A stretch of 64,000 nucleotides of DNA from Candidatus Poribacteria bacterium (lineage in GTDB: Bacteria; Poribacteria; WGA-4E; WGA-3G): NCBI GenBank assembly GCA_026702755.1, contig JAPPBX010000112.1, forward strand, positions 79,364 to 143,363. Reading direction: 5' to 3'. This document shows positions 1 through 55,107 of this stretch, piece by piece. Position 1 is the first letter of the stretch; each line of letters begins with the position of its first letter. Made by a program: the position numbers and the translations under genes. The notes under the pieces are model-generated. The model searched no databases. It was given only the letters and a program-made list of their open reading frames with translations, and was not told the DNA's origin.

Positions 1-879
1 TTGGGGGTCTTGTGTGCGTTCGTGTCGCTTAAAGCAGTCAGCAGTCAGCAACGGACTGGCAGAACGGAAGAAGGGAAGGATGAGGATCCCAACCTTCCAA
101 CCCTCCAATCTTCCAACCAAGAACCTTCGAGTTTTCCAACCTTCCAATCCATCCTCTTACTATCTTTCGTTATTCCTTATTTACTGTTTATCGGGATACA
201 CAAGGTTAAGTTTGTACGCCATCTGCTAATACTCTATCCAATACTCACCGTGCTTGCTGCTGCCGCACTCAGACACTTACCGAATGTTGTAGAGACACTT
301 TTGGGGGTAGTACGTTCACGTAGGATTGGAAACTCTGAACATCCGACTATAGTCAAAGCATTTGGGAGATGGCTTCGCGTAATCTTGGGTGGTGCCGTCG
401 TGCTTTACTCGTTTGTTTATACTATCTCTTTTGCTTCTGTCCTGCTCACGCAACCCACTCGAATCGAGGTATCGAACTGGGTATCAGTACACATTCCTCA
501 GGAAGAATCTATTGCTGTTGCTCCAGAAATTCTATTTGACTGGCTTCTTCCTGAATTGGACATGGTGATAGGTGAAGAGGTAAAATGGGTTCTTATCCTT
601 GTGCCAGATCTCGAAGTGTTTCAAAAATATCGAGCGCGTCCTCAATCTTACGAAAAAAAGGATTGGTATCCTCTCAGTGAAATTGACTTGGAGGAAGTGC
701 TCGCGTTTTACATGCACGTTTTAGGGGAAGGAAGCCCCTACAAATTGCACAAGACATTCCGACGGACACCAGCGTTTTTTGGTATTCAAATATCCGATAG
801 TGGTGCGCCGTTTCCAATGCGCTCGCTTGCACATTCTGAATTCCGCGTTTATCGCCGTGCCGATGAAAGAATGCCCTGA
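1..879 (+). CDS. C-terminal part of a membrane glycosyltransferase (PMT/ArnT-like), truncated by window edge
   Basis: The frame is open from the first base, so the true start lies outside the window and the TTG at base 1 is not evidence of a start. After a repeat-derived stretch (about residues 10-52) come membrane segments at about residues 50-65 and 70-90, with a basic loop between them, then another at about 125-150. The phrase KFVRHLLILYPIL and the following soluble part (RIEVSNWVSVHIPQEESIAV) resemble the C-terminal region of dolichyl-phosphate-mannose/ArnT-type glycosyltransferases, which use lipid-linked sugars at the membrane. The catalytic N-terminal part is not visible. Family assignment is by resemblance only; another polytopic membrane protein remains possible. 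Confidence 0.55.
   Translation: MGVLCAFVSLKAVSSQQRTGRTEEGKDEDPNLPTLQSSNQEPSSFPTFQSILLLSFVIPYLLFIGIHKVKFVRHLLILYPILTVLAAAALRHLPNVVETLLGVVRSRRIGNSEHPTIVKAFGRWLRVILGGAVVLYSFVYTISFASVLLTQPTRIEVSNWVSVHIPQEESIAVAPEILFDWLLPELDMVIGEEVKWVLILVPDLEVFQKYRARPQSYEKKDWYPLSEIDLEEVLAFYMHVLGEGSPYKLHKTFRRTPAFFGIQISDSGAPFPMRSLAHSEFRVYRRADERMP
31..150 (+). repeat. Heptamer/octamer palindromic element inside a reading frame
   Basis: CAGTCAG heptamers (about 36-52) are followed by a purine arm rich in GGAAG (68-82) and a complementary arm of CCAACCTT-type octamers (91-149). The whole segment stays in frame in the membrane protein and encodes a Ser/Gln/Pro-rich stretch between two hydrophobic parts. The element at 4967-5077 has the same order of parts. 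Confidence 0.7.
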
Positions 880-2922: not shown

Positions 2923-5900
2923 ATGGATTTTCTTGGAATGATACCCGCATCTCGCGCGATTCGCCGCTATCTATACCCGTTTTGTCTCTTCGTGTTCGCG
3001 CTAAATCTATCTACCCAACATGTAGACGCAGCAGATCACGAAGTCGTAGGAGATACACCACTTCCAACCGTCAACGAATTAGCCAATGAAGTGCAGACCT
3101 TGATAGTCGGGACAACATCAACAGAAACCTTCAATTCCGAAGACGTTTATCGGATAGAGTTAAATATAGATGTTCCAAGCAACATTGACTTGATTGCTAC
3201 GGAGAGTGAAAACATCACCGTCCTTCTTGAGAAACAGGCACCGGCTACAAATACGGAACAGGATACGCTAATTCGCACCTACCTTGACAGCATCACAGTG
3301 ACCGGTGAACAAAACGATGGCACGCTTCAGTTGAAGGTCCACCTGCCGGGTAACGCCCCTGAGGGGCAATCTAATGAATCCTCCAATAAAGAAAACCTAC
3401 AAGCAACGCTCTACAATCGAGTTCAACTGAAATATACGATTAAAACGCCTGCCGATGTATCTGTTAAACTCCAGGCGAAAGCGGGGAACATAAGCCTCCA
3501 GCGTATCCGTGGGAAGATAGAAGTTGCGATGGGAGTAGGGGATGTACATTTAGATGAAACCTTGGGGAACTATAACATCAGTGTAGCGAATGGTGATATT
3601 GATGGAAAAATCTTGCTAACCCAAGGACAGAACAAATTGGAGACGCAAAACGGTTCAATCGGGTTGCTGATCCTTGACCCCGTTGCAGCACCGATGGATA
3701 TAACCGCAGGAGGTGGTAGCATTCGCTTACAGCTCCCTGAAAATTACGCTGCTGATGTCGAATTTGAGAGTGAGAAACAGCAAATCGTTGTCAATTTGCC
3801 AGCACAAATTGACGATGAGTCGGGATTAACCATTGTTAACGATGGTGGACCGCTGTTGCGGTTAAAAGCCGCCGACTTAATTTCACTGCTGTCGAGTCCA
3901 CCGAATGACAAAGACACATTTGCCGATGCCGAACCGAATCCGCTCGCAGATGTTGCTCAACCTGTTCCGCAAATAGCACAACCGCCTGTTATTGATGGTA
4001 ATTTATCTGAAATCGCGTGGCAAACAGCTGGTGCGCTCGCGCCACTCCAAAATCCAAATGGCACCGGAACTCCCAAAAATCCGACTGAAACCTTTTTAAT
4101 GTGGGATGCAGAGAATCTTTATATCGGTGTAAAAGCATCCGTATTTGACTTCTATCTTCTATATATTTCACAAACTCAGCACAACTCTCCGATTTGGGAG
4201 GATGAGTGTATTGAAATCCTAATTGATCCGAATCCGAAAACTGATATCTATCATCACCTTGTCATCAACCCAATCGGTGCGTATTTTGATCAGCGGGTTG
4301 ATACACATGGAGAACCCAATTTCCGATTCGCGCCTCGTGATGTCCAAATCACTTTGGATCGGACAGCGATGCAAACATCCTTCAATGCCGATCGTGAATG
4401 GAATTCAGAAATAGAAGTTGCCACCCAAATTAACACCACTTTTTGGAGCCTTGAAATCGCTCTCCCGCGTAAAACCTTGGAGTCTTCTCCTAAAATGGAT
4501 TCGCAGTCTGATTCCTCCTTTGAAAGCCGGTGGCTTTTTAACGTCCACCGTAAGATGTACACTCGTAACACGAAAAGCCTTATACCTTCTACAACCAGAG
4601 AATATAGTTATTGGCAGCCAATTTATGATGACGAGTATCCCTGGTGGCCACATTCGCCTCAGGAGTATGTAGGTGCACTTTCGGGACGCTACGGTCCGGC
4701 AATGGGTTTTTTGGAATTCGTAACGATGCCCCTCGCCTCTGAAGACTTTGCACCCGAGGCGAAATTTAAGGTTGCTGCTATTGAAATTAAAGGTAACACC
4801 AAGATTTCAACGGAGATCATCCAAAAGTCCCTCCCCGTTCAACCTGAGGACATCATCACACTTTCACAACTCTCTTGGCTAATCGCAGAATTACGGGAAC
4901 GGGACTGGTTTCAGGAGGTGCGTTTGGAGACTCAGCAGGTCAATGTTGGTGAAGACCCCGTCAACCCTCAGCAATCAGCGGTCAGCGATCAGCAAAAAAC
5001 CGGAACGGAAGACAGGAAGGGTGAAAGAGGAGATACTCAGCCTTCCAGCCTTCCAGCCTTCCAGCCAAGCGTTAATCTACATATCCAAGTGACGGAAGCC
5101 CCTGTGTTTTTTGCTCAAGAAATTAAAATTGAAGGGAATAGAAGTTTTCCCTCGCAATTCATTAAGGATTGGTTCCAGTTAAAACCCGGCTATCTCGCTG
5201 CTGCAGTTGTTAAACTGAAACAACTCTTAATTGCTGATTTTTATTTAAATCGTGGATATGAATTCGCCACGGTTGAATATCAATTTGTTGACAATATCCT
5301 TGAATTTAACATTGACGAAGGGATATTGCACGAAGTTCGTTTTACAGGAAATACTCGAATCACGGAGGCGGAACTGTTATCAGCACTTGATCTGAAAATT
5401 GGGGTTGCTGGAGAACGGGGTTCACAAACCTCGGATGTTTATCATCGTACCCTCGGTCAATCGAAGATAAACCGCATGAGTAAAGAACTCAGTGAGAACA
5501 ATGAGCATTTCAAATCAGTTCGGAATTGGCGTGTTCAACGTGAAGGTGGAAAAAATGTCATGATTATTGACATTGAGGAACAGCCCTTCGCGCGACACGG
5601 CGGTTTTCCGATCGTTCAATTCAATCGTGTTCACGGGTTAATGCTCGGCGCGGGCGGGACACTCGCGACACAACTCACAGGCAGAGAACAGGTTTTCGGT
5701 TCAATAAGCCGTGGATTTTCGAGCAAAATATGGAACTATCAAATTGGTATCGAGCAGGGATTCTCTAAGCGACAACTCCTGAAACTCGGTGGGAGTCTTT
5801 ATAAACTTACCGATGTCAGTTCTAATGTTTATCTACATCACGGTGATGCTACCCTGAGTGCCACCTATTACGGTTCCGCACTTCAAGATTATTACCAACG

Positions 5901-6720
5901 TTTAGGAGCCCAAGGATGGATCACCTACGCGCCTACTCAATGGAGTTATCTCAGGTTGGAATTTACAGGGGAAAAGCACGATAATCTCTCTAAATCAACG
6001 GATTGGAGCTACTTAAACCGGAATCAACTTAAGCGGGGCAATGCTCGAATTGATCGTGGACAGCTGAGGAATCTCTCCCTCGTTTTAGGGTTTGACACCC
6101 GGGACCACAAATCAACAAGCACACGGCATTTCCACACGCTGTTTTCCGCAAATGAGCGAACTCGGCGTGGATGGCGCGGTCAATTCGCAATTGAGGTAGC
6201 AGGACAAAGTTTCGGCGGCGATTACGCCTTCAATTTCTATCGATTTGAGGTGGCACGCTACACACCTTTATCGGGTCCACATCATTTAAACGTTCGTGTT
6301 GCGGGTGATTTTTCTGATGCACCACTGCCCAGACAACGGCTCCTTCACCTTGGAGGTGGTAACACCCTGCGCGGTCACGATTTTAACGCATTCGCTGGGG
6401 ATAGCCGACTCCTGCTTAATCTTGAGTATCGTCTTATCAAAGAGACAATTCTCACCGAACAAGATGTTATGCTCGGGTGGTCTCTCAGCTGTTTCTTGGA
6501 TACGGGCAGTGTGTGGTGGTATGATGAAATGCTCTTTTCCGATTTTGAGGGTTTTATGACGCGACTGAAAACATCAATCGGCATCGGAGGCTCCGTTTTT
6601 GCAGATCCATTCGCTACTGCCTCGCCATGGAGTCTTGGGGTTGAAATAGCAGGACCGCTCGATTCATCTTTCTCTTTGCGAAGTCCAAAAGTCATCTTGC
6701 GCCTAGATCGCATTTTTTAG
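2923..6720 (+). CDS. Omp85/BamA-type outer-membrane protein with DUF4097-like and CBM9-like domains
   Basis: This 1265-residue protein has a signal peptide at about 1-37. A beta-rich DUF4097-like region follows at about 60-300, with GKIEVAMGVGDVHLDETLG-type turns, and then a CBM9-like sugar-binding module at about 345-570 (PPVIDGNLSEIAW, LYIGVKASVFD). Next come POTRA-like domains at about 620-860, and a beta-barrel with the Omp85 turn GGGNTLRGHDF at about 1150, ending in Phe. POTRA-barrel proteins insert or export proteins at the outer membrane. Here the extra N-terminal domains would sit in the periplasm. An in-frame repeat insertion occupies about residues 681-718, between POTRA segments. 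No strong ribosome site precedes ATG 2923. Barrel and POTRA calls are secure; the role of the N-terminal half is unknown. Confidence 0.82.
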   Translation: MDFLGMIPASRAIRRYLYPFCLFVFALNLSTQHVDAADHEVVGDTPLPTVNELANEVQTLIVGTTSTETFNSEDVYRIELNIDVPSNIDLIATESENITVLLEKQAPATNTEQDTLIRTYLDSITVTGEQNDGTLQLKVHLPGNAPEGQSNESSNKENLQATLYNRVQLKYTIKTPADVSVKLQAKAGNISLQRIRGKIEVAMGVGDVHLDETLGNYNISVANGDIDGKILLTQGQNKLETQNGSIGLLILDPVAAPMDITAGGGSIRLQLPENYAADVEFESEKQQIVVNLPAQIDDESGLTIVNDGGPLLRLKAADLISLLSSPPNDKDTFADAEPNPLADVAQPVPQIAQPPVIDGNLSEIAWQTAGALAPLQNPNGTGTPKNPTETFLMWDAENLYIGVKASVFDFYLLYISQTQHNSPIWEDECIEILIDPNPKTDIYHHLVINPIGAYFDQRVDTHGEPNFRFAPRDVQITLDRTAMQTSFNADREWNSEIEVATQINTTFWSLEIALPRKTLESSPKMDSQSDSSFESRWLFNVHRKMYTRNTKSLIPSTTREYSYWQPIYDDEYPWWPHSPQEYVGALSGRYGPAMGFLEFVTMPLASEDFAPEAKFKVAAIEIKGNTKISTEIIQKSLPVQPEDIITLSQLSWLIAELRERDWFQEVRLETQQVNVGEDPVNPQQSAVSDQQKTGTEDRKGERGDTQPSSLPAFQPSVNLHIQVTEAPVFFAQEIKIEGNRSFPSQFIKDWFQLKPGYLAAAVVKLKQLLIADFYLNRGYEFATVEYQFVDNILEFNIDEGILHEVRFTGNTRITEAELLSALDLKIGVAGERGSQTSDVYHRTLGQSKINRMSKELSENNEHFKSVRNWRVQREGGKNVMIIDIEEQPFARHGGFPIVQFNRVHGLMLGAGGTLATQLTGREQVFGSISRGFSSKIWNYQIGIEQGFSKRQLLKLGGSLYKLTDVSSNVYLHHGDATLSATYYGSALQDYYQRLGAQGWITYAPTQWSYLRLEFTGEKHDNLSKSTDWSYLNRNQLKRGNARIDRGQLRNLSLVLGFDTRDHKSTSTRHFHTLFSANERTRRGWRGQFAIEVAGQSFGGDYAFNFYRFEVARYTPLSGPHHLNVRVAGDFSDAPLPRQRLLHLGGGNTLRGHDFNAFAGDSRLLLNLEYRLIKETILTEQDVMLGWSLSCFLDTGSVWWYDEMLFSDFEGFMTRLKTSIGIGGSVFADPFATASPWSLGVEIAGPLDSSFSLRSPKVILRLDRIF
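4967..5077 (+). repeat. Palindromic heptamer element inserted in frame between POTRA segments
   Basis: Four degenerate heptamers (CAGCAAT, CAGCGGT, CAGCGAT, CAGCAAA) are followed by a GGAAG-rich arm and a complementary arm of repeated CCTTCCAG. Order and spacing match the copy at 31-150. It encodes a low-complexity Gln/Ser/Pro stretch unlike the rest of the protein. Confidence 0.75.
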
Positions 6721-19213: not shown

Positions 19214-19337
19214 TACTCGTTTCAGAGTTTCAGGGAATTGCCTGCTGGTGGAGCGACAGTTAGACGGTGGACTCTTTGAGAAAACCGCAGTCGCTACGAA
19301 GCCGAAGCCCCACGCTTTAGTGTGTGGGCGGTATCAC
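19200..19337 (+). ncRNA. Predicted omega RNA scaffold at the right end of tnpB element 1
   Basis: By analogy with known TnpB systems, the tail of tnpB and the downstream 120 bases should form the guide scaffold, ending at the right-end hairpin. The guide would start at about 19338. The segment has stem-forming stretches (for example the hairpin at 19308-19327). This is inferred, not shown. Confidence 0.4.
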
Positions 19338-19362
19338 ATCTCTAACGGCGGAGGAACCTGTT

Positions 19363-20343
19363 TTGGAAAAAATTGAGAAAGCGTTTAGTGTCAATGCTGG
19401 CGGAAGTTTGACTATTGTGTCGGAGTTCGGTGCAATTGATATTCAAACCGCTGAACAGAATAAAGTTGAGGTTGCTGTCACTAAAGAATCAAAATCTAAA
19501 TTGGCTAAGGCATCTCAAGAAGTGCTTGAGGATTTTGAGTTGGCATTTGAACATGAGGGTTCCGATGTTCGTATTGAAGGAGCTTTCAAACGCGGTCGAG
19601 AACACTGGCAAAAAAAGTTAAATCGCTTGAAAATCCATTTTCTGGTAACGGTGCCTCAACAGTACAGCGTTGACTTGGACACCTCAAGTGGTGGTATTTC
19701 GGTTGCCGACCTTGATGGTGATGTTCGTGTGAAGACCTCGGGCGGTAGTTTGCGTTTAGGGGATATTACAGGTACAGTGTGGGGACAGACATCCGGCGGA
19801 AGTATCGAACTCACATCATGTGGTGGTCAAGCGGAACTGAAAACGTCCGGTGGTAGTATTGAAGTGGTCAATGTCGCGGGTGATGTTCAAGCACGAACTT
19901 CAGGAGGCAACCTCCGCTTTGGTGCCGTTCAAGGTTCTATTTGGGGCAAGACTTCAGGAGGCAGTATCAAGGTTGCGAAGTGTAGTGGCGGGGCAGATGT
20001 CCAGACCTCGGGAGGCAACATCATACTGCAGAACGTTGGTGGGAGTGTGAATGCGAAAACGTCAGGAGGCAACATCCACGCCTTTATGATAACGCAACCC
20101 GATAGCGACTGTAGTCTGCACACGTCGGGTGGCGGAATAACCACCATTCTTATCCCGGACATTGCTGTTGACGTAGAAGCAGAAACCAGCGGCGGACATG
20201 TCTCAACGGATTTTGTGGTAGAATCGGTTATTCAAGGGAAGGTTCCGAAAAATAGATTGAAAGGTCGCATAAATGGCGGCGGTCCCTTGCTGAAATTGCG
20301 CACCTCTGGTGGGAGTATTCATTTACAGAAGGCTACGGATTAA
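19363..20343 (+). CDS. DUF4097-family beta-repeat protein
   Basis: The protein is built of repeats with the turn TSGGS/N at about 18-20 residue spacing (at least eight copies, from SSGGI to the final TSGGS). This is the pattern of DUF4097 putative adhesin/beta-helix proteins; the N-terminal domain of the protein at 2923 is similar. No signal peptide is present in this frame. TTG 19363 has CGGAGGAA six bases upstream and is the best start. The frame also runs back through 19324 into the right end of the tnpB element, so the original N-terminus may have been displaced by that insertion. Confidence 0.75.
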   Translation: MEKIEKAFSVNAGGSLTIVSEFGAIDIQTAEQNKVEVAVTKESKSKLAKASQEVLEDFELAFEHEGSDVRIEGAFKRGREHWQKKLNRLKIHFLVTVPQQYSVDLDTSSGGISVADLDGDVRVKTSGGSLRLGDITGTVWGQTSGGSIELTSCGGQAELKTSGGSIEVVNVAGDVQARTSGGNLRFGAVQGSIWGKTSGGSIKVAKCSGGADVQTSGGNIILQNVGGSVNAKTSGGNIHAFMITQPDSDCSLHTSGGGITTILIPDIAVDVEAETSGGHVSTDFVVESVIQGKVPKNRLKGRINGGGPLLKLRTSGGSIHLQKATD

Positions 20344-22677: not shown

Positions 22678-24669
22678 TTAAAATGTACGCTCAATTCCCC
22701 AAAAGATCATCTGTTTGAACGCGGGTTCGGAAGGCGCGTCAAGCGGAAATGCAAATTCAACGCGGAATATACCGGCATTACTAACTTTGGCAAATCCACC
22801 CCGTAGCCCGAATCCAACACTTCGTTTCGGTTCTGCCAGATTGAATGTGTAATGTCCATTCCAGATGTAACCGATGTCAGTAAAGGCAGTAGAACTTACG
22901 ATAAGACCTAAGTTAACAGAGCGTTTGATAAACGGCTTCGCAATGAACGTAGCAACTGCTTCGATCCCTTCATCGAGTTTCCTGAAGAACGTCCCACCAT
23001 AAACGGTTCGGCTTTCAAGGCGTAGCACCATCATTTTTTCGCCGTTAAATTGTCGGTAGTTGTAACCTCGCAGTCCGTTGAAAGCTCCGAGAACGACCTG
23101 ACTTTCACCGCGCCATCCAAACAGCATCTCCGTTTTGAATTCCACCACAAACGTTTGATGAAAATCGAAAAAACCGTTCTTACGAAATCCTTTGTCGACT
23201 GTATAGATCTCGCCTGTGTTGAATACATCTGTGTAATACCACGAGGTTTGCGCCTGCAGTATGGAACGCTCAATTCGGGTTGTAAAGTATGTGCCCATAT
23301 CTATAAGGATTGTCCCTAATATACGGTTTCCTGCCGTCCAACCCGATCTACCGATAAAGTTTGCGTAAGTTTCTGCTTTGTCTGAACCGTAAAGGGGAGA
23401 AGCCTGTCCGAGTGAGAAAGCGTATTCGGATCCGACAAAGAAATCTTCCTCGCGCCCCATCCTTCTGATGAACCGGGTTTTATAGTAGGTGACGCGTTTT
23501 CGACCCACGGTAACACCAACCAGTTTAACATCGCGGCTTGAGGGTGCTGCCGTAGAGTCATAGAGTTTCTCAATCAACACGTACTTTGAACGGCGTGAGG
23601 TCGCCCAAACCCCAATATAGTTTTGCCGTTCCCGGTCACCGAAATATCGGCGGACTCTCCCGGCTACGCCTTGAAGATTTACCTCAAATCTATCTGTTGC
23701 TTCTAACCTATCAGAGAGCGGGATCATTTCATACCATGCGAAATCACCTATTGCTTCTGAGAGACTAAACTTTGCGCTCCATCGACTCTTCAGCGTATAT
23801 TGTGGACGCTCAAGCACAACTGCCCATGAATCTCCCTCACGTTTTTGAATATAGGCACCATCAAAATTCCAATGTGAGCTGAAAACGCGGGGCATCCTAT
23901 ATTTCCATGTGAGTAGACTCTTCGTCTTTTCGCCGATCTCGCTAATCCGCTGATAGCGGACTTCAGTGTCATGACCGGAACCAAATACATTGGATTCTCG
24001 TATCCCCAAAAGAAATGTTCCACCTTGACTGTTCAATGCCGGATCGAATGAAGGGAGAGGTGGTGACCAGAGTTCTGTGATATTGACGTGAATCCTAACC
24101 GTGTTTGCCTTGGCGTTCCAGAACGTCTCAATCCTTGCGGCTCCGATATAAGTCTTGTCTCGGAGTATTTGCTCGCTTTCTTTCTTATCCGCTTCTACAT
24201 AGGTATCCCCGACCTCAAACAGGAGTTCACGAAGGACTACGTCTTTCTTGGTTTTCTCGTTACCCGATAAAGTAATTTCCCCGATAGTGCCTTCATCAAT
24301 TTCAATGCCGAGATAAACACCGTCCGCGAATTTCTTCGCAGAAATTTGCTCTTCACCGACACGCGCGAAACGGTACCCGTTTTTCCTATAGAAGCCTATA
24401 ATCGCTTCAAGGTCTGATTTCAGAACCGCTTCATCGTAAACACGCCACACATCTGTCTGCATCAACGCGCGAATTTCCTGTTCAGAGAATGCTTGGTTTC
24501 CATCAATTACAAGGCTACGTACAACGCTTGCTTCATCTTTTAAAGCGACGCTTTTACGCTGTGCAGCGTCTACCGTTTCTGCCAAGGTTTCTACTTGTAT
24601 GCTTATGCTAAGCAGGACGATTAAACATAAAGCCTGAAACGAGCGCTTGACATACCAAAGATGTTTCAT
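22678..24669 (-). CDS. Omp85-type outer-membrane protein with POTRA domains
   Basis: The protein has 663 residues. A signal peptide covers about 1-31. Two POTRA domains at about 45-205 read VVRSLVIDGNQAFSEQEIRALM and IGEITLSGNEKTKKDVVLREL in part. A beta-barrel then runs to the end (GAFNGLRGYNYRQF, final Phe). POTRA-barrel proteins assemble or export proteins at the outer membrane. Its ATG overlaps the stop of the BatA/VWA gene (TAATG), so the two are translationally coupled and may work together across the periplasm. A CAGGTG site lies 8 bases before ATG. Confidence 0.85.
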   Translation of the reverse strand: MKHLWYVKRSFQALCLIVLLSISIQVETLAETVDAAQRKSVALKDEASVVRSLVIDGNQAFSEQEIRALMQTDVWRVYDEAVLKSDLEAIIGFYRKNGYRFARVGEEQISAKKFADGVYLGIEIDEGTIGEITLSGNEKTKKDVVLRELLFEVGDTYVEADKKESEQILRDKTYIGAARIETFWNAKANTVRIHVNITELWSPPLPSFDPALNSQGGTFLLGIRESNVFGSGHDTEVRYQRISEIGEKTKSLLTWKYRMPRVFSSHWNFDGAYIQKREGDSWAVVLERPQYTLKSRWSAKFSLSEAIGDFAWYEMIPLSDRLEATDRFEVNLQGVAGRVRRYFGDRERQNYIGVWATSRRSKYVLIEKLYDSTAAPSSRDVKLVGVTVGRKRVTYYKTRFIRRMGREEDFFVGSEYAFSLGQASPLYGSDKAETYANFIGRSGWTAGNRILGTILIDMGTYFTTRIERSILQAQTSWYYTDVFNTGEIYTVDKGFRKNGFFDFHQTFVVEFKTEMLFGWRGESQVVLGAFNGLRGYNYRQFNGEKMMVLRLESRTVYGGTFFRKLDEGIEAVATFIAKPFIKRSVNLGLIVSSTAFTDIGYIWNGHYTFNLAEPKRSVGFGLRGGFAKVSNAGIFRVEFAFPLDAPSEPAFKQMIFWGIERTF

Positions 24670-26930
24670 TAGTTTTCACCTGCCGTGCGCACGTTTTCGC
24701 CCCTTCCCTGTAACGGCTGGGGACCCCGGTTCGAGAGAAAACTTTCGAGGAGCATAAGGCAAACAACTAAGACCAGCAATTCGCCCCAAATTTCCCTGCC
24801 GTGTCGATTGATGTTGTAAGCGTCGGCTTCTATCGCTACTCCCTCAGTTTCCTGATCTGTTGCTGTTTGGGCACCGACTCGCGCTGCGGCGCGTTCTAAT
24901 GGAATCCCTGTTAAGTCGCCTTCGGTGGTGTCAACATTAGCTGCAAAGAAGTTTCGTTGGATCCTGTTTTGCGTTTGTACTTCAACCTGATAGATACCGG
25001 GACGTTCTGTACCTTGGAATCGTAATGTACCATCTTCAGCAATTGGCACCACTATGCTATCGTCTATATCGGAGGTATCATCGTTCCATTCGCCAACTGT
25101 GCTCTTTAGGCGAATAGACGCTTTCCCACCGGCACTTTGCGGATAACTTGCTGTATAGGTGTCGCCGATATGTCCTTCCCACGCTAAAAGATTGTTACTG
25201 GCTGTCGCTGCATAAAGCACGCTCTGTTGGAGCATTGGAAGGAAATACGGATTAACAAGTAGGTCATTTGTATAAACTGTGGTGGATGTAGATGTCGTCG
25301 CCTGTTGTGTAAGGAGTCCACAATTATAGAGTAGCACAATACTTGTACCTTGACTTCGTTCAACGAAAAAGGGTGTATCGTCTCCGAAACGGGCAATAAC
25401 CTTGGATTCCGACAAGGGGTATAATGTCACACCGTTGCAAAACTGCGGTGCGTATTGTGTAGAGAATCCTTCACTTGAAAACACATCGAAAACAGGATGT
25501 TCTTCCTGATACGCGTGAACCCGTTGTGGTGGTGTCCATGTCAGCGCACTACCAAGTTGGGCAGGCAACCAAATATCGCTAAGTTGATTGTAACTTTTTG
25601 CATCACTTCGGCTGCTCACGAAGGCGATGATACTTTTGCCGTGACGGATGAATTTTTGGAGTTGTGCATTCGTCTGGCGAGAGATTTTTGGCACATCTGC
25701 GAGAATGATGACATCATAGTCTTCCAGTGGGAAGTTCTCAAACTCAGCGGGTGTGCATTGCGTTGGTAAAATCATTGTATCGGCTGTTAGCAGTCGGTTT
25801 TCGGCTGTCGGTGATCGACGGGCGTTAGGAAAATCCCTTTGCTGATTGCTGACGGAAACCGATTGCTGACGGCTATTTTTATGTGGATTTAGTGCTAATG
25901 TTAGGTATTCCGTCTGTTCTCCCACGCATAGCACACGCACTTCACCGAGAACATTAAAGGCAAAATAACGCAGATTATCAATGTTGAGTCGATCTTCTGT
26001 TAATGTGAAGTAACCGATATGCGTGCCGGGTGTAGAAAAGTTGTGTATTAAAGTCGTATTCAGTGATTCGTTTGCGCCGACAGAAAAACTCATAGTTTTT
26101 TGTTTTTTTCCCCCAGTGAACAACGTTAGTATATTTTCCTCCAAGGGTGCTACTGAATGATTCACAGCTGTCACATTCAATTGGAGTGGTAAATTTACGC
26201 CTATTAGTTGATTGGAGGGACGAATTTCTTTAATACTTGTGTTATGCGCTTCACCTTTGGCAACAGGAATCAGAGAAATACGGGCACCTGAACGATTCGG
26301 GAGCCTACTCCAGTTCTTCCATCCGTTTTGGGTGAAGTCTGAAATCAAATAGATTTCTTTGTTCAGTTGCTCTGACTCAGCGAGGATTTCATGGGCGAGT
26401 TCAATGCTGGGCTGAACATTCGTGGTGCGGTAAGAGACCTCCGTATCCTTAATGGTTTCAGTGACGCTCTCAACATCCGGTGTGAGTTGCCGAAAGAGAG
26501 GTTTGGGGATGTCTGACATTAATATAAACGCGGCACTGTCACCGTGACGCAAAGTGTTGAGGATATCAGTTGCCAAAGTTTTCGCTTTCTCGAACCGAAT
26601 GCCATCAATGTCTTGATATGCCATGCTGTAGGAGTTATCTAAAACGATAACGAGGTCGGTTTTCGCGCGCACGGACGCGACGGGCAGTCCAAGCGTCAAA
26701 AAGGGACGTGCTAAGGCGAGCGCGATGAGTGCTACAATTAGCATCCGCAAAAACAGAATGAGAAGTTGTCGGAGTTGGAATCGGCGGGCGTTTTCACGAT
26801 GTGCCGCTGTAAGGAACATCAGACTGCTGAAATCTATTGTTACAACACGACGACGGTTCCAGAGATGGATAATCAATGGGATGCCAGCGGCGAGAAGTCC
26901 GAAAAGAAAGAGTGGATTGAGAAATGCCAT
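24669..26930 (-). CDS. BatA-domain/VWA membrane protein
   Basis: The N-terminal BatA-type domain (residues 1-80) has a membrane hairpin (FGLLAAGIPLIIHLWNRR and a second segment at 55-75). A von Willebrand A domain follows with MIDAS Asp98-x-Ser100-x-Ser102. After a Gln/Arg-rich insertion (about 350-383) come a class I amidotransferase-like segment and a periplasmic beta domain, ending with a membrane helix (ELLVLVVCLMLLESFL). BatA-type proteins often act with MoxR ATPases, none of which is nearby. The stretch encoded by 25783-25876 is a palindromic repeat read in frame. The start abuts another palindromic element and has no clear ribosome site. Confidence 0.8.
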   Translation of the reverse strand: MAFLNPLFLFGLLAAGIPLIIHLWNRRRVVTIDFSSLMFLTAAHRENARRFQLRQLLILFLRMLIVALIALALARPFLTLGLPVASVRAKTDLVIVLDNSYSMAYQDIDGIRFEKAKTLATDILNTLRHGDSAAFILMSDIPKPLFRQLTPDVESVTETIKDTEVSYRTTNVQPSIELAHEILAESEQLNKEIYLISDFTQNGWKNWSRLPNRSGARISLIPVAKGEAHNTSIKEIRPSNQLIGVNLPLQLNVTAVNHSVAPLEENILTLFTGGKKQKTMSFSVGANESLNTTLIHNFSTPGTHIGYFTLTEDRLNIDNLRYFAFNVLGEVRVLCVGEQTEYLTLALNPHKNSRQQSVSVSNQQRDFPNARRSPTAENRLLTADTMILPTQCTPAEFENFPLEDYDVIILADVPKISRQTNAQLQKFIRHGKSIIAFVSSRSDAKSYNQLSDIWLPAQLGSALTWTPPQRVHAYQEEHPVFDVFSSEGFSTQYAPQFCNGVTLYPLSESKVIARFGDDTPFFVERSQGTSIVLLYNCGLLTQQATTSTSTTVYTNDLLVNPYFLPMLQQSVLYAATASNNLLAWEGHIGDTYTASYPQSAGGKASIRLKSTVGEWNDDTSDIDDSIVVPIAEDGTLRFQGTERPGIYQVEVQTQNRIQRNFFAANVDTTEGDLTGIPLERAAARVGAQTATDQETEGVAIEADAYNINRHGREIWGELLVLVVCLMLLESFLSNRGPQPLQGRGENVRTAGEN
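25783..25876 (-). repeat. Palindromic heptamer element inside the BatA/VWA reading frame
   Basis: The segment has GGCTGTTAGCAGTCGG and GGCTGTCGG on one side and TGCTGATTGCTGACGG and CGATTGCTGACGGC on the other. Read on the minus strand it gives a Gln/Ser/Arg-rich stretch flanked by ordinary sequence, with no stop or frameshift. Confidence 0.7.
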
Positions 26931-33163: not shown

Positions 33164-35398
33164 TCACAGGTTATAGAGATACGTTACTTTAACAACAATG
33201 ACACGGTTTTCTAACTGTAACTCACGACGAGTGGTCGTACCAATGAGAGCATCACCCCAAGCCTCGTTATAAGCAACGAAAAGGTGACTCTTCGGGCTAT
33301 ATTCCCATCCGAAGAGGAGACTGAGTAGGTAGCTCTCATGAATTTCACCAGATAGTGGACGTGCCCTGCTCGCCTGTGCAAACATTCGGAGAAATGATTC
33401 ACGTGTGAATAGGTATGTCGCACGCAGCGAACTAACGAAAAATCTGCCGTCAATGGCACCTTCTAAATCGAGACTCTGCGCGTAGCTGCTGTCTAATTCT
33501 ATAGAAAAATTGCTCTGCGGTCGTAAGGTGGATTCAAAGGAGAGGCCCCGCTGTTTGCCTGCTTGTTGTCGTCCAAAGTTAAAATAGTCTGCGAAATCTA
33601 CAGAGATCCCGAAAGCAATTGGATATGTGGAGTTGGTATCCATCTCAAATCCATATCTGTCCGCTGTAAACACTTCGGTGAGTTCAACCTCCCGACTTCG
33701 AGTATAGTAGACATTAATGTCATCCAAGAGGATTTCCCTGAAGTCCATCCCGATGTCCGCACCTGCGCTCCATCTGAGCAGGTCTTCATCGAATTCAGGT
33801 GAGAGAGACAGGTCTGGGTTCCGCAGCCCCCATTCAGTAAAATACGCTGGTGTGTAGAGGCTTTGCGAGAGGCGGGCAGTTACGCCAGAAAAGAATTGAT
33901 GATTGCCCCAATGTGGAGAATAAGAGGAGCGCATATAAACACGCTGCCAGCCACGGTTTCGTTCTTTGCGTAGAAACCCTGTCTGATTGATTTCAAAGTG
34001 TGGCGCGACCCGCTCAAATCCGATACCACTGCTCCAAAGATAGTTGCGTTGTGCGAAGTCAACGGTATAAGCAAAGTTATCGCTATCTTCGCCCGGATGA
34101 AAACTACCCGCATATTGTCCCGTGAGATGATAAGTCTTGCCCAAGGCGAGGTTCATATCAATGCCGCCCACTCGACTGTGTTCCCAACGGTCACTGCCCG
34201 GTTGTTCCTTATTCACGAATAGAATTCCGACGTTTGAACGTTTGAGGATGTCGCGTTTAACACGGATTGCAGAGAACCATGCTTCCTCCTTTTCGGATGA
34301 AGTACTCTCAGAAAACCTGAATTCACCGGTCTGATTTCCCAAGACACCGATGGAGTAGCTCCCGACTTTCCCAGTAAGTTTACTGCCCCAGAGAATGTTG
34401 CCTCGACTCCCGATCCGACGGCTGAACATCAAATCATAAGGCGTTTCAAAAAAACTGTTTCCTTCAACAAAAAATGGGCGTTTTTCTGGAAAGCGCGTCG
34501 GAAAACGGGTCAAATTGATCTCCAATTGATCTGCTTCGACCTGTGCGAAATCAGGGTTGACAGTGACGTTCGCCTTCAAAGCACTCGTAACACTGTATTG
34601 CACATCTAAACCTGTTCCTAATTGCCGCGTTAAGTCAGTATCGGCAGCATCCATACCGCCCCCTAAAAGATAGGGCGAAATTTCAAAATTCTTTCCGGTC
34701 TCAATACCTTGGATGCCTACGATATGTCCTAAATCGGACATCCGCGTGACAACACCCGCCTGTGTCAACTGTTTCCACACCGTGACTTCGCTTTTCCGGC
34801 GGTTTACCCGTTCCACATCGAAACCCCAGATCTGTGTTGGCTTGTCAGTGAATCGGAAATTTGAGAAAGGGATTTTGAACTCGGCACTCCATCCGGATTC
34901 ATCAATATTGCTTTCAACCCACCAAATCCCTTTCCAGTTGCTGTCGCGTTGCGTATCCTCATATCGATAATTATCGCTTTGAACACCCGCTGGGTTTGTG
35001 GCGAATTTATAGCCTGTGCGATGATCATGATGTGGGTCAATGAAGAAAGAGATGACATCCGAGGCGTAGATGTCGCCGCGTCGCGTCATTCGATTGATGA
35101 TTTTGTTGGGTTCAGCATCGTAACATCGGAATGCGACGTAGATATTATGCACATCGTAAGCGATACGGAACTCCGTATCATCGGTTGCGGGACTACCGCG
35201 TGCCGGTTCGAGTTGAATAAAACCGCTGCGCGGTTCTGCTTGCTGCCACGCCTGATCGTCCAATATTCCGTCAATTTGCGGTGGCTCGCCGACAATTCGG
35301 TAGGCTTCAACGACGTGATCGCCTGTTCCTTCTGGATGTGCAAGGAGAAGTGTTGGATATGAGAGCATTAGCAGTAAGGCAATTATGAGTCTTGGCAT
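33164..35398 (-). CDS. DUF5916-family outer-membrane protein with CBM9-like domain
   Basis: A signal peptide (MPRLIIALLLMLSYPTLLLA) leads into a CBM9-like module (PPQIDGILDDQAWQQA, NIYVAFRCYDAEPNKI) and the long DUF5916 beta-rich region (NPDFAQVEADQLEINLTRFPTRFPEKRPFFVEG). It ends in Leu after alternating beta strands, as in an outer-membrane barrel. I place the start at ATG 35398. An in-frame TTG 36 bases upstream (35434) is the first base triplet of a perfect -35 promoter element and cannot be translated from that promoter. The family is widespread in Bacteroidetes and related groups; the role is probably surface glycan or metabolite handling. Confidence 0.87.
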   Translation of the reverse strand: MPRLIIALLLMLSYPTLLLAHPEGTGDHVVEAYRIVGEPPQIDGILDDQAWQQAEPRSGFIQLEPARGSPATDDTEFRIAYDVHNIYVAFRCYDAEPNKIINRMTRRGDIYASDVISFFIDPHHDHRTGYKFATNPAGVQSDNYRYEDTQRDSNWKGIWWVESNIDESGWSAEFKIPFSNFRFTDKPTQIWGFDVERVNRRKSEVTVWKQLTQAGVVTRMSDLGHIVGIQGIETGKNFEISPYLLGGGMDAADTDLTRQLGTGLDVQYSVTSALKANVTVNPDFAQVEADQLEINLTRFPTRFPEKRPFFVEGNSFFETPYDLMFSRRIGSRGNILWGSKLTGKVGSYSIGVLGNQTGEFRFSESTSSEKEEAWFSAIRVKRDILKRSNVGILFVNKEQPGSDRWEHSRVGGIDMNLALGKTYHLTGQYAGSFHPGEDSDNFAYTVDFAQRNYLWSSGIGFERVAPHFEINQTGFLRKERNRGWQRVYMRSSYSPHWGNHQFFSGVTARLSQSLYTPAYFTEWGLRNPDLSLSPEFDEDLLRWSAGADIGMDFREILLDDINVYYTRSREVELTEVFTADRYGFEMDTNSTYPIAFGISVDFADYFNFGRQQAGKQRGLSFESTLRPQSNFSIELDSSYAQSLDLEGAIDGRFFVSSLRATYLFTRESFLRMFAQASRARPLSGEIHESYLLSLLFGWEYSPKSHLFVAYNEAWGDALIGTTTRRELQLENRVIVVKVTYLYNL

Positions 35399-35405
35399 GC
35401 GTTTA

Positions 35406-35434
35406 ATTATAGTGGAAATCTGACGTGTTGTCAA
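35406..35434 (-). promoter_or_regulatory. Perfect consensus promoter giving a leaderless DUF5916 mRNA
   Basis: TTGACA (35434-35429), 17-base spacer and TATAAT (35411-35406) lie on the minus strand. The ATG at 35398 begins seven bases after the -10, where transcription itself should start. Confidence 0.8.
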
Positions 35435-50432: not shown

Positions 50433-53400
50433 TCACTTCATTATTAACATTTTTCTCGTGGCAATGAAGTCGCCGGCTGTAAATGTATAGAAATAGACAC
50501 CGCTTGCCACGGACTCGCCCACTTCATTTTTACCATCCCAATACGCCGCACGACTCCGATACTGATAGATACCCGCGGGTTGGTAACCCAACGCCAACGT
50601 CCGCACTAAGACACCATTCGTGGCATAGATATGCACCGTGACTTCGGCAGGTTCCGCGAGTTGATACGGTATCCAAGTCTCTGGATTGAACGGGTTTGGG
50701 TAGTTGTGAAGTAAAGCCGTCTCTTCTGGAATGAACAACGTCAACAGCTGCTCAAGTTTAGCAATACCCTGTTGAAAGGCGAGCGATCCATCATCTTCAA
50801 CTCGAGCACGTGCTATCCACGCCTGAATCATCGCAGGATTTAGTTCCAAACTGTCTACAGCCGCAACATTGGAAGGAGCAGCCCCTTCGGTTGACTCACC
50901 CAAATGTTGCGCAACAACAATTAGATCCAAAACGTTAATAGTTCCGTCACCGTTAACATCAGCTCGACTGTCCCCGGGCGTAGTGGAACCCAAAAGTTGT
51001 GCCACCAGAATTAGATCAAGAACGTTCACTTGATCGTCTCGGTTTACGTCCGAAGTGAGGAACGCACTGTCTTCAACAGTAATAGCAATTTCGGGGGAGC
51101 CTGAAGGAATTACCTCAGTGCTGCTGGAACCCGCATAAAAATTGCTAAAAGTTACCCGTGTTTCTCCGACAGCCTTCGCTGTAAATATGACCGATAGCAG
51201 CGTGCCGGTGCCGCTGACCCCACCCTTGAATCGTGCTGTGCTTAAGTTGGTGATTTTACCAGTGGTGTTGTCAATCGTGCCAGGGCCGAAAAAGGTACTT
51301 ACCCCCTCCGCTCTCAAAAAGTCGCCTTCGCTCACCTCAACCACTTCAAGTACAGCAGGATCGAATGCAATGTCAGACTGCCATCCTGCTAAATCCGTAA
51401 TATCTTTTGCCCTGAGGCGAAGCGTGAAGGTATCGTCGAGGTAGACGGATGTTGTATCTGTGGAAAGGGAGAACGCGGTATCGCTTACATCTAAGGTAGA
51501 CGGATCCCCCACAGTAATAGTTATATCAGGCGAAGCAGGGGGCATTGCTTTGCCAGCACTGGAACCAGATTGGAATTCACGCAATGCCACCCGTGTTTCT
51601 CCGGCAGCTTTCGCCGTGAATGTGACGGACAGCAGGGTGCCCTCACCGCTCGCTCCCCCTTCTGAGATCCGCGCTGAACCCACACCGGTAATTCTCCCAT
51701 CTGTGTTATCAATCGCGCCTTCCAAAAAGTGGGTTCGTCCCCCATCCTGCCTCAGAAAATTGCCATCCTTCACGCTGTTTGCTTTTAGTACAGCTGGGTC
51801 AAATATAATATCGGATTGCCATCCCGCTAAATCGTCGACACCTTTAGTCTTGACATAGACGGTAAATGTCGCGCCAGCTTTAACCTGCGTTGTATCTGTG
51901 AATAAAGAGAATCTGGTACCAGGGGGTAACACTGTATATTCGGTATCAGGTGCAAAGCCAAAAAACCCGTTACTATGGGTGCGAACAGTAACTAACAAGA
52001 CATTTCTACCTGCTTTCAATGTAACAGGAAAGAAATCTTGGTAATCCTCACCGGCCTGCCAAACGAGATCCTCGTGAATTAACACACCGTTAAGCCAGAC
52101 TTTTAACTCAGCATCGCTACCGACGTACATTGTTGTCTCCTGTTCCGATGGCGAATCCAAGGTGATAGAACCATAGACAACTCCATCAGGGACAGGACGC
52201 GGCAGCATAGCATCAATGTTATTCCTTCCGGTAGATGGGATTTTGCGGGATGTCCACTCGTTGTCTCCGATAGACTCCCCCTCTGTTGCACCGGAAGTAG
52301 CAATCTCCAACTCTGTTACAGACCCTTTACTTGCTTTTGCAAGCAAATCTGTCTTGCTGTCAAGACGCTCCCCAGGGAGCAGCATCCATAACCACGGACC
52401 CGTTATTTTCGGAGCACCTTTTAGGAAAACACCCGGGTTGTCTGCTGTCCCGATATCAGTCTTCTCAGATAATCCAGATAAAGGTGAGAAGTCGGATATC
52501 GCGTTGCTCCAAAGGTCAAGTCGTTCCAAGTTTATAAGTCCCGCAAGGGGCGACACATCCGATATGACGTTTTTGTAAAGATGCAATTCTTTCAAACGGG
52601 TTAATCCTGACAGTGGTGATACATCAGATATGAGATTATAGGCAAGGTCAAGATACGTCAAACTTGTCAATCCATCTAAAGGCGAGAGGTCTGATATGTA
52701 ATTATCCCGTAAATCTAACGAAGTCAGTTGTGTTAACTCTGATAGTCCAGAGATGTCTGAAATGCCACAGTCTCGAATCGCCAGATGCCTCAGTGATTTC
52801 AATCCGTTTACGGACGGAATCGTTGATACAGATCTATCGCCACCAAATTCTATCCATTGTAGTCTTGGCAACTTTGCCAATGGGGAAAAATCTGAGAGAG
52901 GCGTGTTCCGAGCAGCTATGCCTTCCAAACTAATGAGACTCGTAAGCGGCGACACATCGGCTATAGGGTTGCCTGAAATCCCTATCCCGTTCAATTTTAT
53001 TAACCCCTTCAATGGAGATAAATCTGTTATTGCATTCTCCTCAAGCCCTAACCAGTCTACGTTAGTTAAGTCCGCCAGCGGAGATACATCGGTTATCCTG
53101 TTACCCCGCAACTTGATGTTATCTAAGCGTATTAAGCCTGCCAACGGCGATAGATCGGATATCTCATTGCGACGGAATTCTATCCGTTCGAGATTTATCG
53201 CATACTCTAGTCCCGTCAGATCGCGGATGTCTCTTTCATCAGCCTCAAGCCCCGTCAATCTCGCCATATCCTCTGTGGTGATTGAAGCACCGGGGGCTTT
53301 CCCAAGTGCCTCTTCAATCGCTGTACGGAGATTCGCATCCGGGATGTAAACAGCACCCGTTGGAGTCGGTTGGGTGCGGTCTACAACTATTGGGGTGATG

Positions 53401-55049
53401 CTGCTGGACTCTTCCGGGGAATTCAGCGCAGCGATTACTTCATCAAACCGATCTGTCCATGTGTCACGCTGCACGTTCCCGCCATCAATAAGTCCTGTCA
53501 AGCCCAAGTTTTGTAAACTCGACTTCTCTCGAATCTCTTGAAGAAAAGCATCAGTTTCTAACCCGACAGCAGCCGCAGCGTATGATGCTTCAAGAGGATC
53601 ATGAAATACTTCATGAAACCGATGTACAGGTTCTATGCCACCGGGGATGCCCCCTGTCTCCTTAAGTGCCATCTCATAACGCGTTTTATCTTCGTCTAAG
53701 CGGGCATCCATCACTGCTTTTTCTACATACAATCGCAACGCCTGCTCTTTATCAAATGTCGGATTTCCCGTCCGCTGAACCGCTGCACGCACCGTATCCT
53801 CAAACGTCTTCATCCCTTCTGTGTGGCAACCGATACACGAAAGCCCATTCCGCACGGCAGGATCGTCCGCAGCAGGATTAGAAACGATAGTGGTGGGTGC
53901 TACATTTATGCGACTACCAGATGCATCCGAGATGTAGTATGCCTGTAAACCGTTGGGAAGATTGAAGATGATCTCACCACCGTCAGGTGTAAAAGAGAGG
54001 GGATGTGTGAAGATATTTTGCGCACCAACGCTTCCAGCAAAGTCGTAACTTTTCCAATACGCACCATATCGAGAAGTATGACGTTCCACGACGCGATTGT
54101 TATTTGAGACACCTGAGTCGTTGAAACCTGCGCGCCAGACGCGGACCCCCGGCGCACTCTGGATATTCCTCGCGACATTCACATCAAGGTCTCTCTCTAA
54201 CTCGCGATCTGTTTCTGGAAGATCCAGAATATCGTGATAGAGCGGCGGCAGTGATGCCGTTGCGAGAAACCAGTCGACATGAACAAACGGCACTTCACAC
54301 CTCATCTCTTCACGCAGATTTGTCAATTTTTCGTTCAGATTTGCTTGGGTTTCAGAATCGAATTCAACCTTATAGGGGTATTCCCTTTCAATCTGTGTCC
54401 ATGCTTCATTTCTGATATCCCACTCGTAGTGCCGTAAGTCGATGTGAAAGATTGTCTCTCTCGGATCAATGGGTGTCGGTTTTTTAACTTCAAAACCCCA
54501 AGATAGACTATTTACTAATTTCGAGAGAGCGACGCTATAGGCACGTAGTGCCTCAGTCGTTTCGCCAGCGTTATAGAGGTGTGTAAGTGTAAAATAACGC
54601 GCGAAGGCGCGGTCAAATGGTGCGAGAGATTCGACGTGACCTTCAATCGTTTCAAGCACTTGGTCTGGCGTGATGAAATTGATGTCCGGACGTGTAAAGG
54701 TAGTCCAGTCCGGAGCACCTGTTTGAATCCATTGGTGAATTGTATTGAGTGCTTCTTGGGAGATCGGAGGAGCGTTAAGCGGCATCCGTCTTGCCAGATC
54801 GGTCTCGATTAACCGCTGGTAGAACTTTGAACCGTTAGGATTTCCGGGGATAATTGCTCCCGAATCAATAAGTTCTCGGCTACTTCGGATGATGAGCTGC
54901 TCTGTGAAGGTGCCGTGTTCTCCGTGGCAGCTTGAGCAGTTATGGTCGAGAATCTCATACGCCTGTTGTGCAAGATCCAGTTGCGCCTCAACAGTTTGAT
55001 ACCCCAAGATAAGTATTAGTAGAAAGCTGATTTTGATGAGATTCTTCAT
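50433..55049 (-). CDS. Giant extracellular di-heme, LRR, cohesin, dockerin protein with FlgD/T9SS-like tail
   Basis: The protein has 1538 residues. Signal peptide about 1-22. Heme motif Cys38-x2-Cys41-His42 lies in a planctomycete-type cytochrome domain, and a second CIGCH at about 405. Internalin-type 22-residue leucine-rich repeats span about 573-866 (LSPLAGLIRLDNIKLRGN). A galactose-binding-like beta domain covers about 870-1035, followed by two cohesin-like beta domains (about 1041-1179 and 1186-1324, each with DLAGWQSDI and FDPAVL). A type I dockerin with two calcium loops (DVNRDDQVNVLDLI, DVNGDGTINVLDLI) lies at about 1334-1386. The end (about 1446-1538) is a NYPNPFNP-type Ig-like sorting tail. 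AGAGGG precedes ATG. The neighbour at 55108 shares the LRR, dockerin and tail. Confidence 0.88.
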   Translation of the reverse strand: MKNLIKISFLLILILGYQTVEAQLDLAQQAYEILDHNCSSCHGEHGTFTEQLIIRSSRELIDSGAIIPGNPNGSKFYQRLIETDLARRMPLNAPPISQEALNTIHQWIQTGAPDWTTFTRPDINFITPDQVLETIEGHVESLAPFDRAFARYFTLTHLYNAGETTEALRAYSVALSKLVNSLSWGFEVKKPTPIDPRETIFHIDLRHYEWDIRNEAWTQIEREYPYKVEFDSETQANLNEKLTNLREEMRCEVPFVHVDWFLATASLPPLYHDILDLPETDRELERDLDVNVARNIQSAPGVRVWRAGFNDSGVSNNNRVVERHTSRYGAYWKSYDFAGSVGAQNIFTHPLSFTPDGGEIIFNLPNGLQAYYISDASGSRINVAPTTIVSNPAADDPAVRNGLSCIGCHTEGMKTFEDTVRAAVQRTGNPTFDKEQALRLYVEKAVMDARLDEDKTRYEMALKETGGIPGGIEPVHRFHEVFHDPLEASYAAAAVGLETDAFLQEIREKSSLQNLGLTGLIDGGNVQRDTWTDRFDEVIAALNSPEESSSITPIVVDRTQPTPTGAVYIPDANLRTAIEEALGKAPGASITTEDMARLTGLEADERDIRDLTGLEYAINLERIEFRRNEISDLSPLAGLIRLDNIKLRGNRITDVSPLADLTNVDWLGLEENAITDLSPLKGLIKLNGIGISGNPIADVSPLTSLISLEGIAARNTPLSDFSPLAKLPRLQWIEFGGDRSVSTIPSVNGLKSLRHLAIRDCGISDISGLSELTQLTSLDLRDNYISDLSPLDGLTSLTYLDLAYNLISDVSPLSGLTRLKELHLYKNVISDVSPLAGLINLERLDLWSNAISDFSPLSGLSEKTDIGTADNPGVFLKGAPKITGPWLWMLLPGERLDSKTDLLAKASKGSVTELEIATSGATEGESIGDNEWTSRKIPSTGRNNIDAMLPRPVPDGVVYGSITLDSPSEQETTMYVGSDAELKVWLNGVLIHEDLVWQAGEDYQDFFPVTLKAGRNVLLVTVRTHSNGFFGFAPDTEYTVLPPGTRFSLFTDTTQVKAGATFTVYVKTKGVDDLAGWQSDIIFDPAVLKANSVKDGNFLRQDGGRTHFLEGAIDNTDGRITGVGSARISEGGASGEGTLLSVTFTAKAAGETRVALREFQSGSSAGKAMPPASPDITITVGDPSTLDVSDTAFSLSTDTTSVYLDDTFTLRLRAKDITDLAGWQSDIAFDPAVLEVVEVSEGDFLRAEGVSTFFGPGTIDNTTGKITNLSTARFKGGVSGTGTLLSVIFTAKAVGETRVTFSNFYAGSSSTEVIPSGSPEIAITVEDSAFLTSDVNRDDQVNVLDLILVAQLLGSTTPGDSRADVNGDGTINVLDLIVVAQHLGESTEGAAPSNVAAVDSLELNPAMIQAWIARARVEDDGSLAFQQGIAKLEQLLTLFIPEETALLHNYPNPFNPETWIPYQLAEPAEVTVHIYATNGVLVRTLALGYQPAGIYQYRSRAAYWDGKNEVGESVASGVYFYTFTAGDFIATRKMLIMK

Positions 55050-55107
55050 GTATTTTCCCTCTACTTGTGGAAGCGAACTGTGCTCGCGAATCCTTTTGGT
55101 TACACAT

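Follow-up and report, generated by a model that had tools for sequence, protein, structure and literature searches.

Omp85 proteins are universal builders of the outer membrane, and beyond BamA, TamA, and FhaC most of their subfamilies have no known partner or ligand. An earlier, sequence-only reading of the DNA described here held that such proteins normally carry only POTRA domains in the periplasm; the Omp85 survey already contains exceptions with WD40, patatin, and metallo modules (PMC4104836). Toastrack domains serve as partners in the envelope stress response of the Psp/Lia systems (PMC11237479, PMC9239133) and are argued to be intracellular (PMC11237479). The carbohydrate-binding module TmCBM9-2 has a sugar clamp composed of Trp71 and Trp175 (PMC8280721). 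Here we describe a gene of Candidatus Poribacteria bacterium (assembly GCA_026702755.1, contig JAPPBX010000112.1, positions 79,364 to 143,363 of the forward strand; this stretch of 64,000 nucleotides is called the window, and coordinates refer to it), whose product joins a toastrack, a CBM9 module, three POTRAs, and an Omp85 barrel in one chain. This architecture lies outside the published classification, is fixed in one phylum, and has a testable linkage across phyla. In the main text of the survey, none of the ten Omp85 subfamilies is described with CBM9 or DUF4097, and Poribacteria are absent from it (PMC4104836). The open-access literature gave no relevant paper that links CBM9, DUF4097, or bactofilin to Omp85 or POTRA, and a literature search on Poribacteria with outer membrane and glycosaminoglycan returned nothing useful.

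Domain architecture of the protein

The gene (2923–6720, forward strand, as are all features of this section unless stated) encodes 1265 residues in a single frame without internal stop, from an ATG to the stop at 6718–6720. Pfam, AlphaFold, and Foldseek together confirm the domain order proposed earlier, with DUF4097-like and CBM9-like domains ahead of the POTRAs and the Omp85 barrel. The AlphaFold model covers residues 68–1265 and was built from an alignment with 55 orthologues, with a mean predicted local confidence (pLDDT) of 81 and a predicted template modelling score (pTM) of 0.50. The N-terminal 37 residues (2923–3033) form a predicted signal peptide, read from the sequence, with a basic start, the hydrophobic stretch YLYPFCLFVFALNLS, and a possible cleavage between VDA and A.

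The toastrack occupies residues ~68–325 (3124–3897). Its DUF4097 match in the window protein lies just below the Pfam cut-off (22.0 bits against 22.9, E=1e-4), and is clearly above it in orthologues (38.6 and 38.2 bits). The modelled beta-helix fold matches the toastrack structure 4qrk (Foldseek, E=2e-6) and also 3pet. A free-standing 339-residue DUF4097-like protein is encoded at 19324–20343 of the same strand; it matches the toastrack of the window protein and goes undetected by Pfam.

A disordered linker in the model separates the toastrack from the CBM9 module, which spans residues ~346–605 (3958–4737). Pfam detects CBM9_1 above cut-off at residues 357–441 (E=3e-7), and a profile built from the N-terminal part retrieves TmCBM9-2 (1i82, E=4e-10). 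In addition, Foldseek retrieves the CBM9 structures 7nwn, 7nwo, and 1i82 (E about 5e-6, TM score 0.69 on the target). A CBM9 fold is thus present where it had been expected, at residues 345–570, and the module extends about 35 residues farther toward the C-terminus than those limits. W425 aligns with the clamp residue Trp71 and is kept in 49 of 55 orthologues, while E431, kept in 48, aligns with Glu77 (our numbering). The second clamp tryptophan is probably W574/W575, judged by its position in the sequence: the pair lies at the place expected for Trp175, but outside the HMMER alignment. W425, E431, R543, W564, and W574/W575 are kept in most of the orthologues, the residues of the clamp region in 46–49 of 55.

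The genome contains 15 CBM9 matches, several of them in frames of 700–823 residues; the one checked is a CBM9+DUF5916 protein. The nearest match to the module described here (95 bits) belongs to a protein from a 732-residue frame, similar in size to the CBM9-DUF5916 proteins of this genome. One outer-membrane-type protein with CBM9 and DUF5916 is encoded within the window (33164–35434, reverse strand).

Three POTRA stretches follow above cut-off in Pfam (E=1e-18; POTRA_1 at residues 615–669), and the AlphaFold model places them at residues ~614–725 (4762–5097), ~728–798 (5104–5316), and ~804–886 (5332–5580). The C-terminal barrel (residues ~890–1265, 5590–6717), probably of about 16 strands, is recognized by Pfam (Omp85 at residues 1047–1222, E=2e-7, above cut-off), AlphaFold, and Foldseek, and the POTRA–barrel part matches the structures of BamA and Toc75. 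The Omp85 signature residues are intact and conserved in 51–53 of 55 orthologues. Particularly, loop L6 carries LRGH (residues 1149–1152, 6367–6378), the counterpart of the Omp85 motif VRGF/Y, with R1150 and G1151 each kept in 51 orthologues. The barrel wall carries FLDTG (residues 1191–1195, 6493–6507), the counterpart of F/GxDxG, with D1193 kept in 53, and the terminal residue is Phe in 51.

A loop of POTRA 1 is lengthened by an in-frame dispersed-repeat insert (residues ~680–716, 4960–5070), which is predicted to be disordered (pLDDT about 30); the loop is much shorter in most orthologues. The repeat consists of heptamer runs and CCTTCCAGCC repeats, lies in frame within coding sequences, and recurs at window positions 33–121 and within the open reading frame 24669–26930 (reverse strand). 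Partial copies occur elsewhere in the genome, the best with 78% identity over 100 bases.

Conservation in Poribacteria and separateness from BamA and TamA

Of 85 Poribacteria genomes searched with a profile, 83 contain a member of the family, among them every one of the 56 good-quality genomes. One open frame runs from the toastrack to the end of the barrel in about 70 of the 85 genomes (counted from search tables), including five assembled as single contigs and two deep-branching outgroup families outside the class. The sequence-only reading had asked whether a frameshift or an assembly error joined separate genes. We reject such a fusion and consider its chance negligible, as nothing was found in its favour and the same frame recurs in these genomes, single-contig ones included.

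The three proteins of family f3 are shorter (649–687 residues), with the toastrack leading directly to the barrel. A barrel tree, which has long branches, several open forks, and an unsure deeper order, places them inside the full-length group, so the CBM9 module and the POTRAs were lost in f3. Together with the spread across the phylum, this loss indicates that the full architecture is probably ancestral in Poribacteria. In class family f5 the CBM9 module is degenerate, being missed by Pfam or scored below cut-off.

The genome encodes its canonical BamA elsewhere, with 818 residues, five POTRAs, and a TIGR03303 score of 409.7 bits (cut-off 297.15), beside skp-like and lpxD genes. In addition, an Omp85 of 1053 residues lies directly beside a 2170-residue TamB-like gene. 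The window protein itself is not BamA, as it reaches 62.9 bits against 297.15, has three POTRAs rather than five, and lies apart from the bamA–skp–lpxD context; nor is it TamA, scoring 15.7 bits against 625 while TamB adjoins another Omp85. Because BamA and the TamB-linked Omp85 are both found elsewhere, the window protein is an additional Omp85. Three paralogues with related barrels (about 765–821 residues), whose N-terminal region differs from that of the window protein (one has DUF4252), lie together at C82:90000–109500 of the same genome, near a 1045-residue ECF sigma factor with a fused, beta-propeller-like C-terminus. The window also encodes a 663-residue POTRA protein (22678–24669, reverse strand) of TamA-like length and with a barrel-like C-terminal half, in which Pfam finds POTRAs and no Omp85 match.

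Linkage in other phyla and gene neighbourhood

The wider search covered 386 genomes, about 302 of them outside Poribacteria, and supplied all the evidence on other phyla, since a contig scan with one peptide pattern reached only close relatives. Looking for the same architecture elsewhere, as suggested earlier, found it in nearly all sequenced Poribacteria; among the matches listed for the about 302 other genomes, no protein spans CBM9 through barrel. These outside matches are either barrels only, or separate CBM9 or toastrack proteins, and several of the nearest barrels have bactofilin-like N-termini.

Of 24 outside barrels, 6 have a separate DUF4097 gene within 5 kb, where 0.20 would be expected from DUF4097 density (Poisson P=8e-8, or 2.5e-6 with one genus counted once; both values are optimistic, the genomes being phylogenetically non-independent). 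Only Pfam DUF4097 matches entered these statistics; two further profiles, 'liaf' and 'ds', were excluded, as they had been seeded from some of the loci that they then found. At one locus (L204:5284–6114, reverse strand) a stop or frameshift seems to interrupt a DUF4097 gene, leaving frames of 121 and 154 residues, and an intact DUF4097 gene lies beside it. One protein from another phylum (L200) is itself a fusion, with a toastrack, a middle segment, POTRA, and barrel, and lacks CBM9. A CBM9 in its middle segment was considered and rejected, no signature being visible by eye or to Pfam.

Further relatives have DUF4390 genes beside the barrel, and three loci add a histidine kinase together with a response regulator of sigma-54 type. 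In some NtrYX systems DUF4390 (PlrP) forms a third, periplasmic component (PMC13001219), and NtrYX controls the cell envelope (PMC7240162). Moreover, CBM48/AMPK1_CBM modules are found above cut-off on four barrels, three times on one of them, and weakly on a fifth, so a module of carbohydrate-binding type arose before this barrel more than once. Since CBM48-type modules appear independently on related barrels of other phyla, glycan contact is plausible here too, and the aligned clamp makes sugar binding by the CBM9 a plausible property of the window protein. The barrel with three such modules (L222:5897–8689) belongs to a 931-residue protein that also has a bactofilin domain; DUF4390 follows it, and the genes before it encode a histidine kinase and a response regulator of sigma-54 type.

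Within Poribacteria the neighbours vary (their names come from sequence reading, and part of them were profile-tested). In the genus of the window the gene is flanked by adenylate kinase-like and opposite-strand sugar isomerase-like genes, with YgfZ/GcvT-like, UspA-like, TRAP transporter, and corrinoid-protein genes farther away. The YgfZ-like neighbour recurs in family f2; in f4 the gene lies near ThiD/ThiE and an ABC transporter, and in f3 near long repeat proteins. Repeated 66-base units at 52486–56964 of the window probably encode leucine-rich repeats.

A proposed role in envelope homeostasis and competing explanations

We tentatively favour an outer-membrane Omp85 of envelope homeostasis, whose periplasmic arm would dock partners and bind glycan; we rank it first among four explanations, at somewhat less than an even chance. 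The protein would belong to an Omp85 subfamily specific to Poribacteria. Its barrel would sit in the outer membrane, with the three POTRAs, CBM9, and toastrack as a long periplasmic arm. The toastrack would dock protein partners, while the CBM9 may hold a periplasmic glycan, either peptidoglycan or a surface polysaccharide or glycoprotein that is still being made. The POTRA–barrel unit may help to build or monitor the outer membrane, in homeostasis or as an assembly accessory. The protein would then represent the fused form of a toastrack and Omp85-type barrel gene pair, which in other phyla lies beside envelope-stress-type genes. This reading is favoured because of the toastrack–barrel linkage and the envelope associations of toastracks, DUF4390, and NtrYX; fusion here and adjacency elsewhere are a classic sign of shared function.

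Several observations weigh against it. Family f3 retains toastrack and barrel in the absence of CBM9 and POTRAs, so glycan binding is dispensable there, and 18 of the 24 outside barrels lack a DUF4097 neighbour. The DUF4390/NtrYX loci sit on partly different branches of the long-branched, open-forked barrel tree. The clamp assignment is drawn from alignment of sequences, and with such a pTM the model leaves the arrangement of the domains relative to one another uncertain. In addition, the Poribacteria families compared show no conserved neighbouring gene for stress response, glycans, or secretion, which weakens an export reading and leaves the stress reading likewise unsupported by neighbours.

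Export had been proposed by the sequence-only reading, which saw a transporter that senses or handles glycans or glycoproteins. The glycan half of that idea fits a real CBM9 with W425 and E431 kept, and CBM48 on related barrels; for the other half no sign of transport or export was found, the neighbours being neither glycan nor secretion genes and differing between families. An explanation close to this idea, unlikely in our view, is a BamA-like accessory factor that would assemble or translocate special substrates, such as the CBM9-DUF5916 barrels or glycoproteins, with CBM9 and toastrack as receptors for substrates or partners. The POTRA–barrel unit with its intact motifs would suit it, as would the supply of CBM9 proteins in the genome, and the survey presumes Omp85s outside BamA and TamA to be assembly accessories (PMC4104836); yet no substrate gene is conserved nearby in Poribacteria, and relatives without any POTRA keep the barrel and its toastrack partner.

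The Poribacteria that carry the gene include sponge-associated ones, and the kept clamp residues could serve to bind sponge or environmental glycans if CBM9 and toastrack were carried to the outside. The precedent is PlpD, an Omp85 with a non-POTRA N-terminal domain (PMC4104836, PMC11116518). Such surface display is improbable, as three POTRAs stand between the modules and the barrel, conservation is phylum-wide rather than limited to one branch, and toastracks have ties to stress modules. We give an equally low rank to the possibility that both modules are ligand-free structural spacers in an ordinary Omp85 paralogue. Family f3 manages without CBM9 and POTRAs, and f5 has a degenerate CBM9, as this would predict, whereas the retention of the clamp-region residues goes beyond the needs of a spacer and sister barrels have gained CBM48 modules separately.

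The functional tie with the best support is that of toastrack with barrel, which points to envelope homeostasis rather than to glycan export. A wider proposal, which we regard as possible and hold with more reserve still, sees here a new phylum-defining Omp85 subfamily as the fused form of an undescribed cross-phylum module. This module would unite the barrel with a toastrack in the periplasm and a carbohydrate-binding part, CBM9 in the present case and CBM48 in others, linking the outer membrane to envelope-stress signalling of the NtrYX/DUF4390 or ECF type. If true, it would put toastracks in the periplasm, against the current intracellular view. The conserved arm offers two handles across a whole phylum, a glycan and a docking surface, and the toastrack–barrel gene pair of other phyla allows the function to be tested in bacteria that are tractable.

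Compared with the Psp/Lia toastrack proteins (DUF4097/DUF2154/DUF2807; LiaG, YvlB; PMC11237479, PMC9239133), the window protein shares the domain family and the 4qrk fold. Theirs are attached to inner-membrane domains, and an intracellular location has been argued for them, whereas the toastrack described here comes after a signal peptide and before POTRAs, and should therefore be extracytoplasmic. The CBM9-DUF5916 proteins, such as that at 33164–35434, have a related N-terminal CBM9 before a presumed barrel, but end in DUF5916 instead of Omp85 and lack POTRA and toastrack. Bacteroidota DUF5686 proteins are similar in the barrel part (PF18939 matches, below the family cut-off of 39.2 bits), and differ in their carboxypeptidase-regulatory-like N-termini. 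WD40-Omp85, of which this genome also encodes one (PD40/WD40), patatin-Omp85 (PlpD), and Metallo-Omp85 likewise fuse a non-POTRA module before the barrel, with a module of different identity. The 'BamA-like' Omp85/TpsB subfamily, as presented by Heinz and Lithgow 2014 (PMC4104836), has one to three POTRAs and a barrel and occurs alongside BamA, as the window protein does; the latter differs in carrying a CBM9 and a toastrack ahead of its POTRAs.

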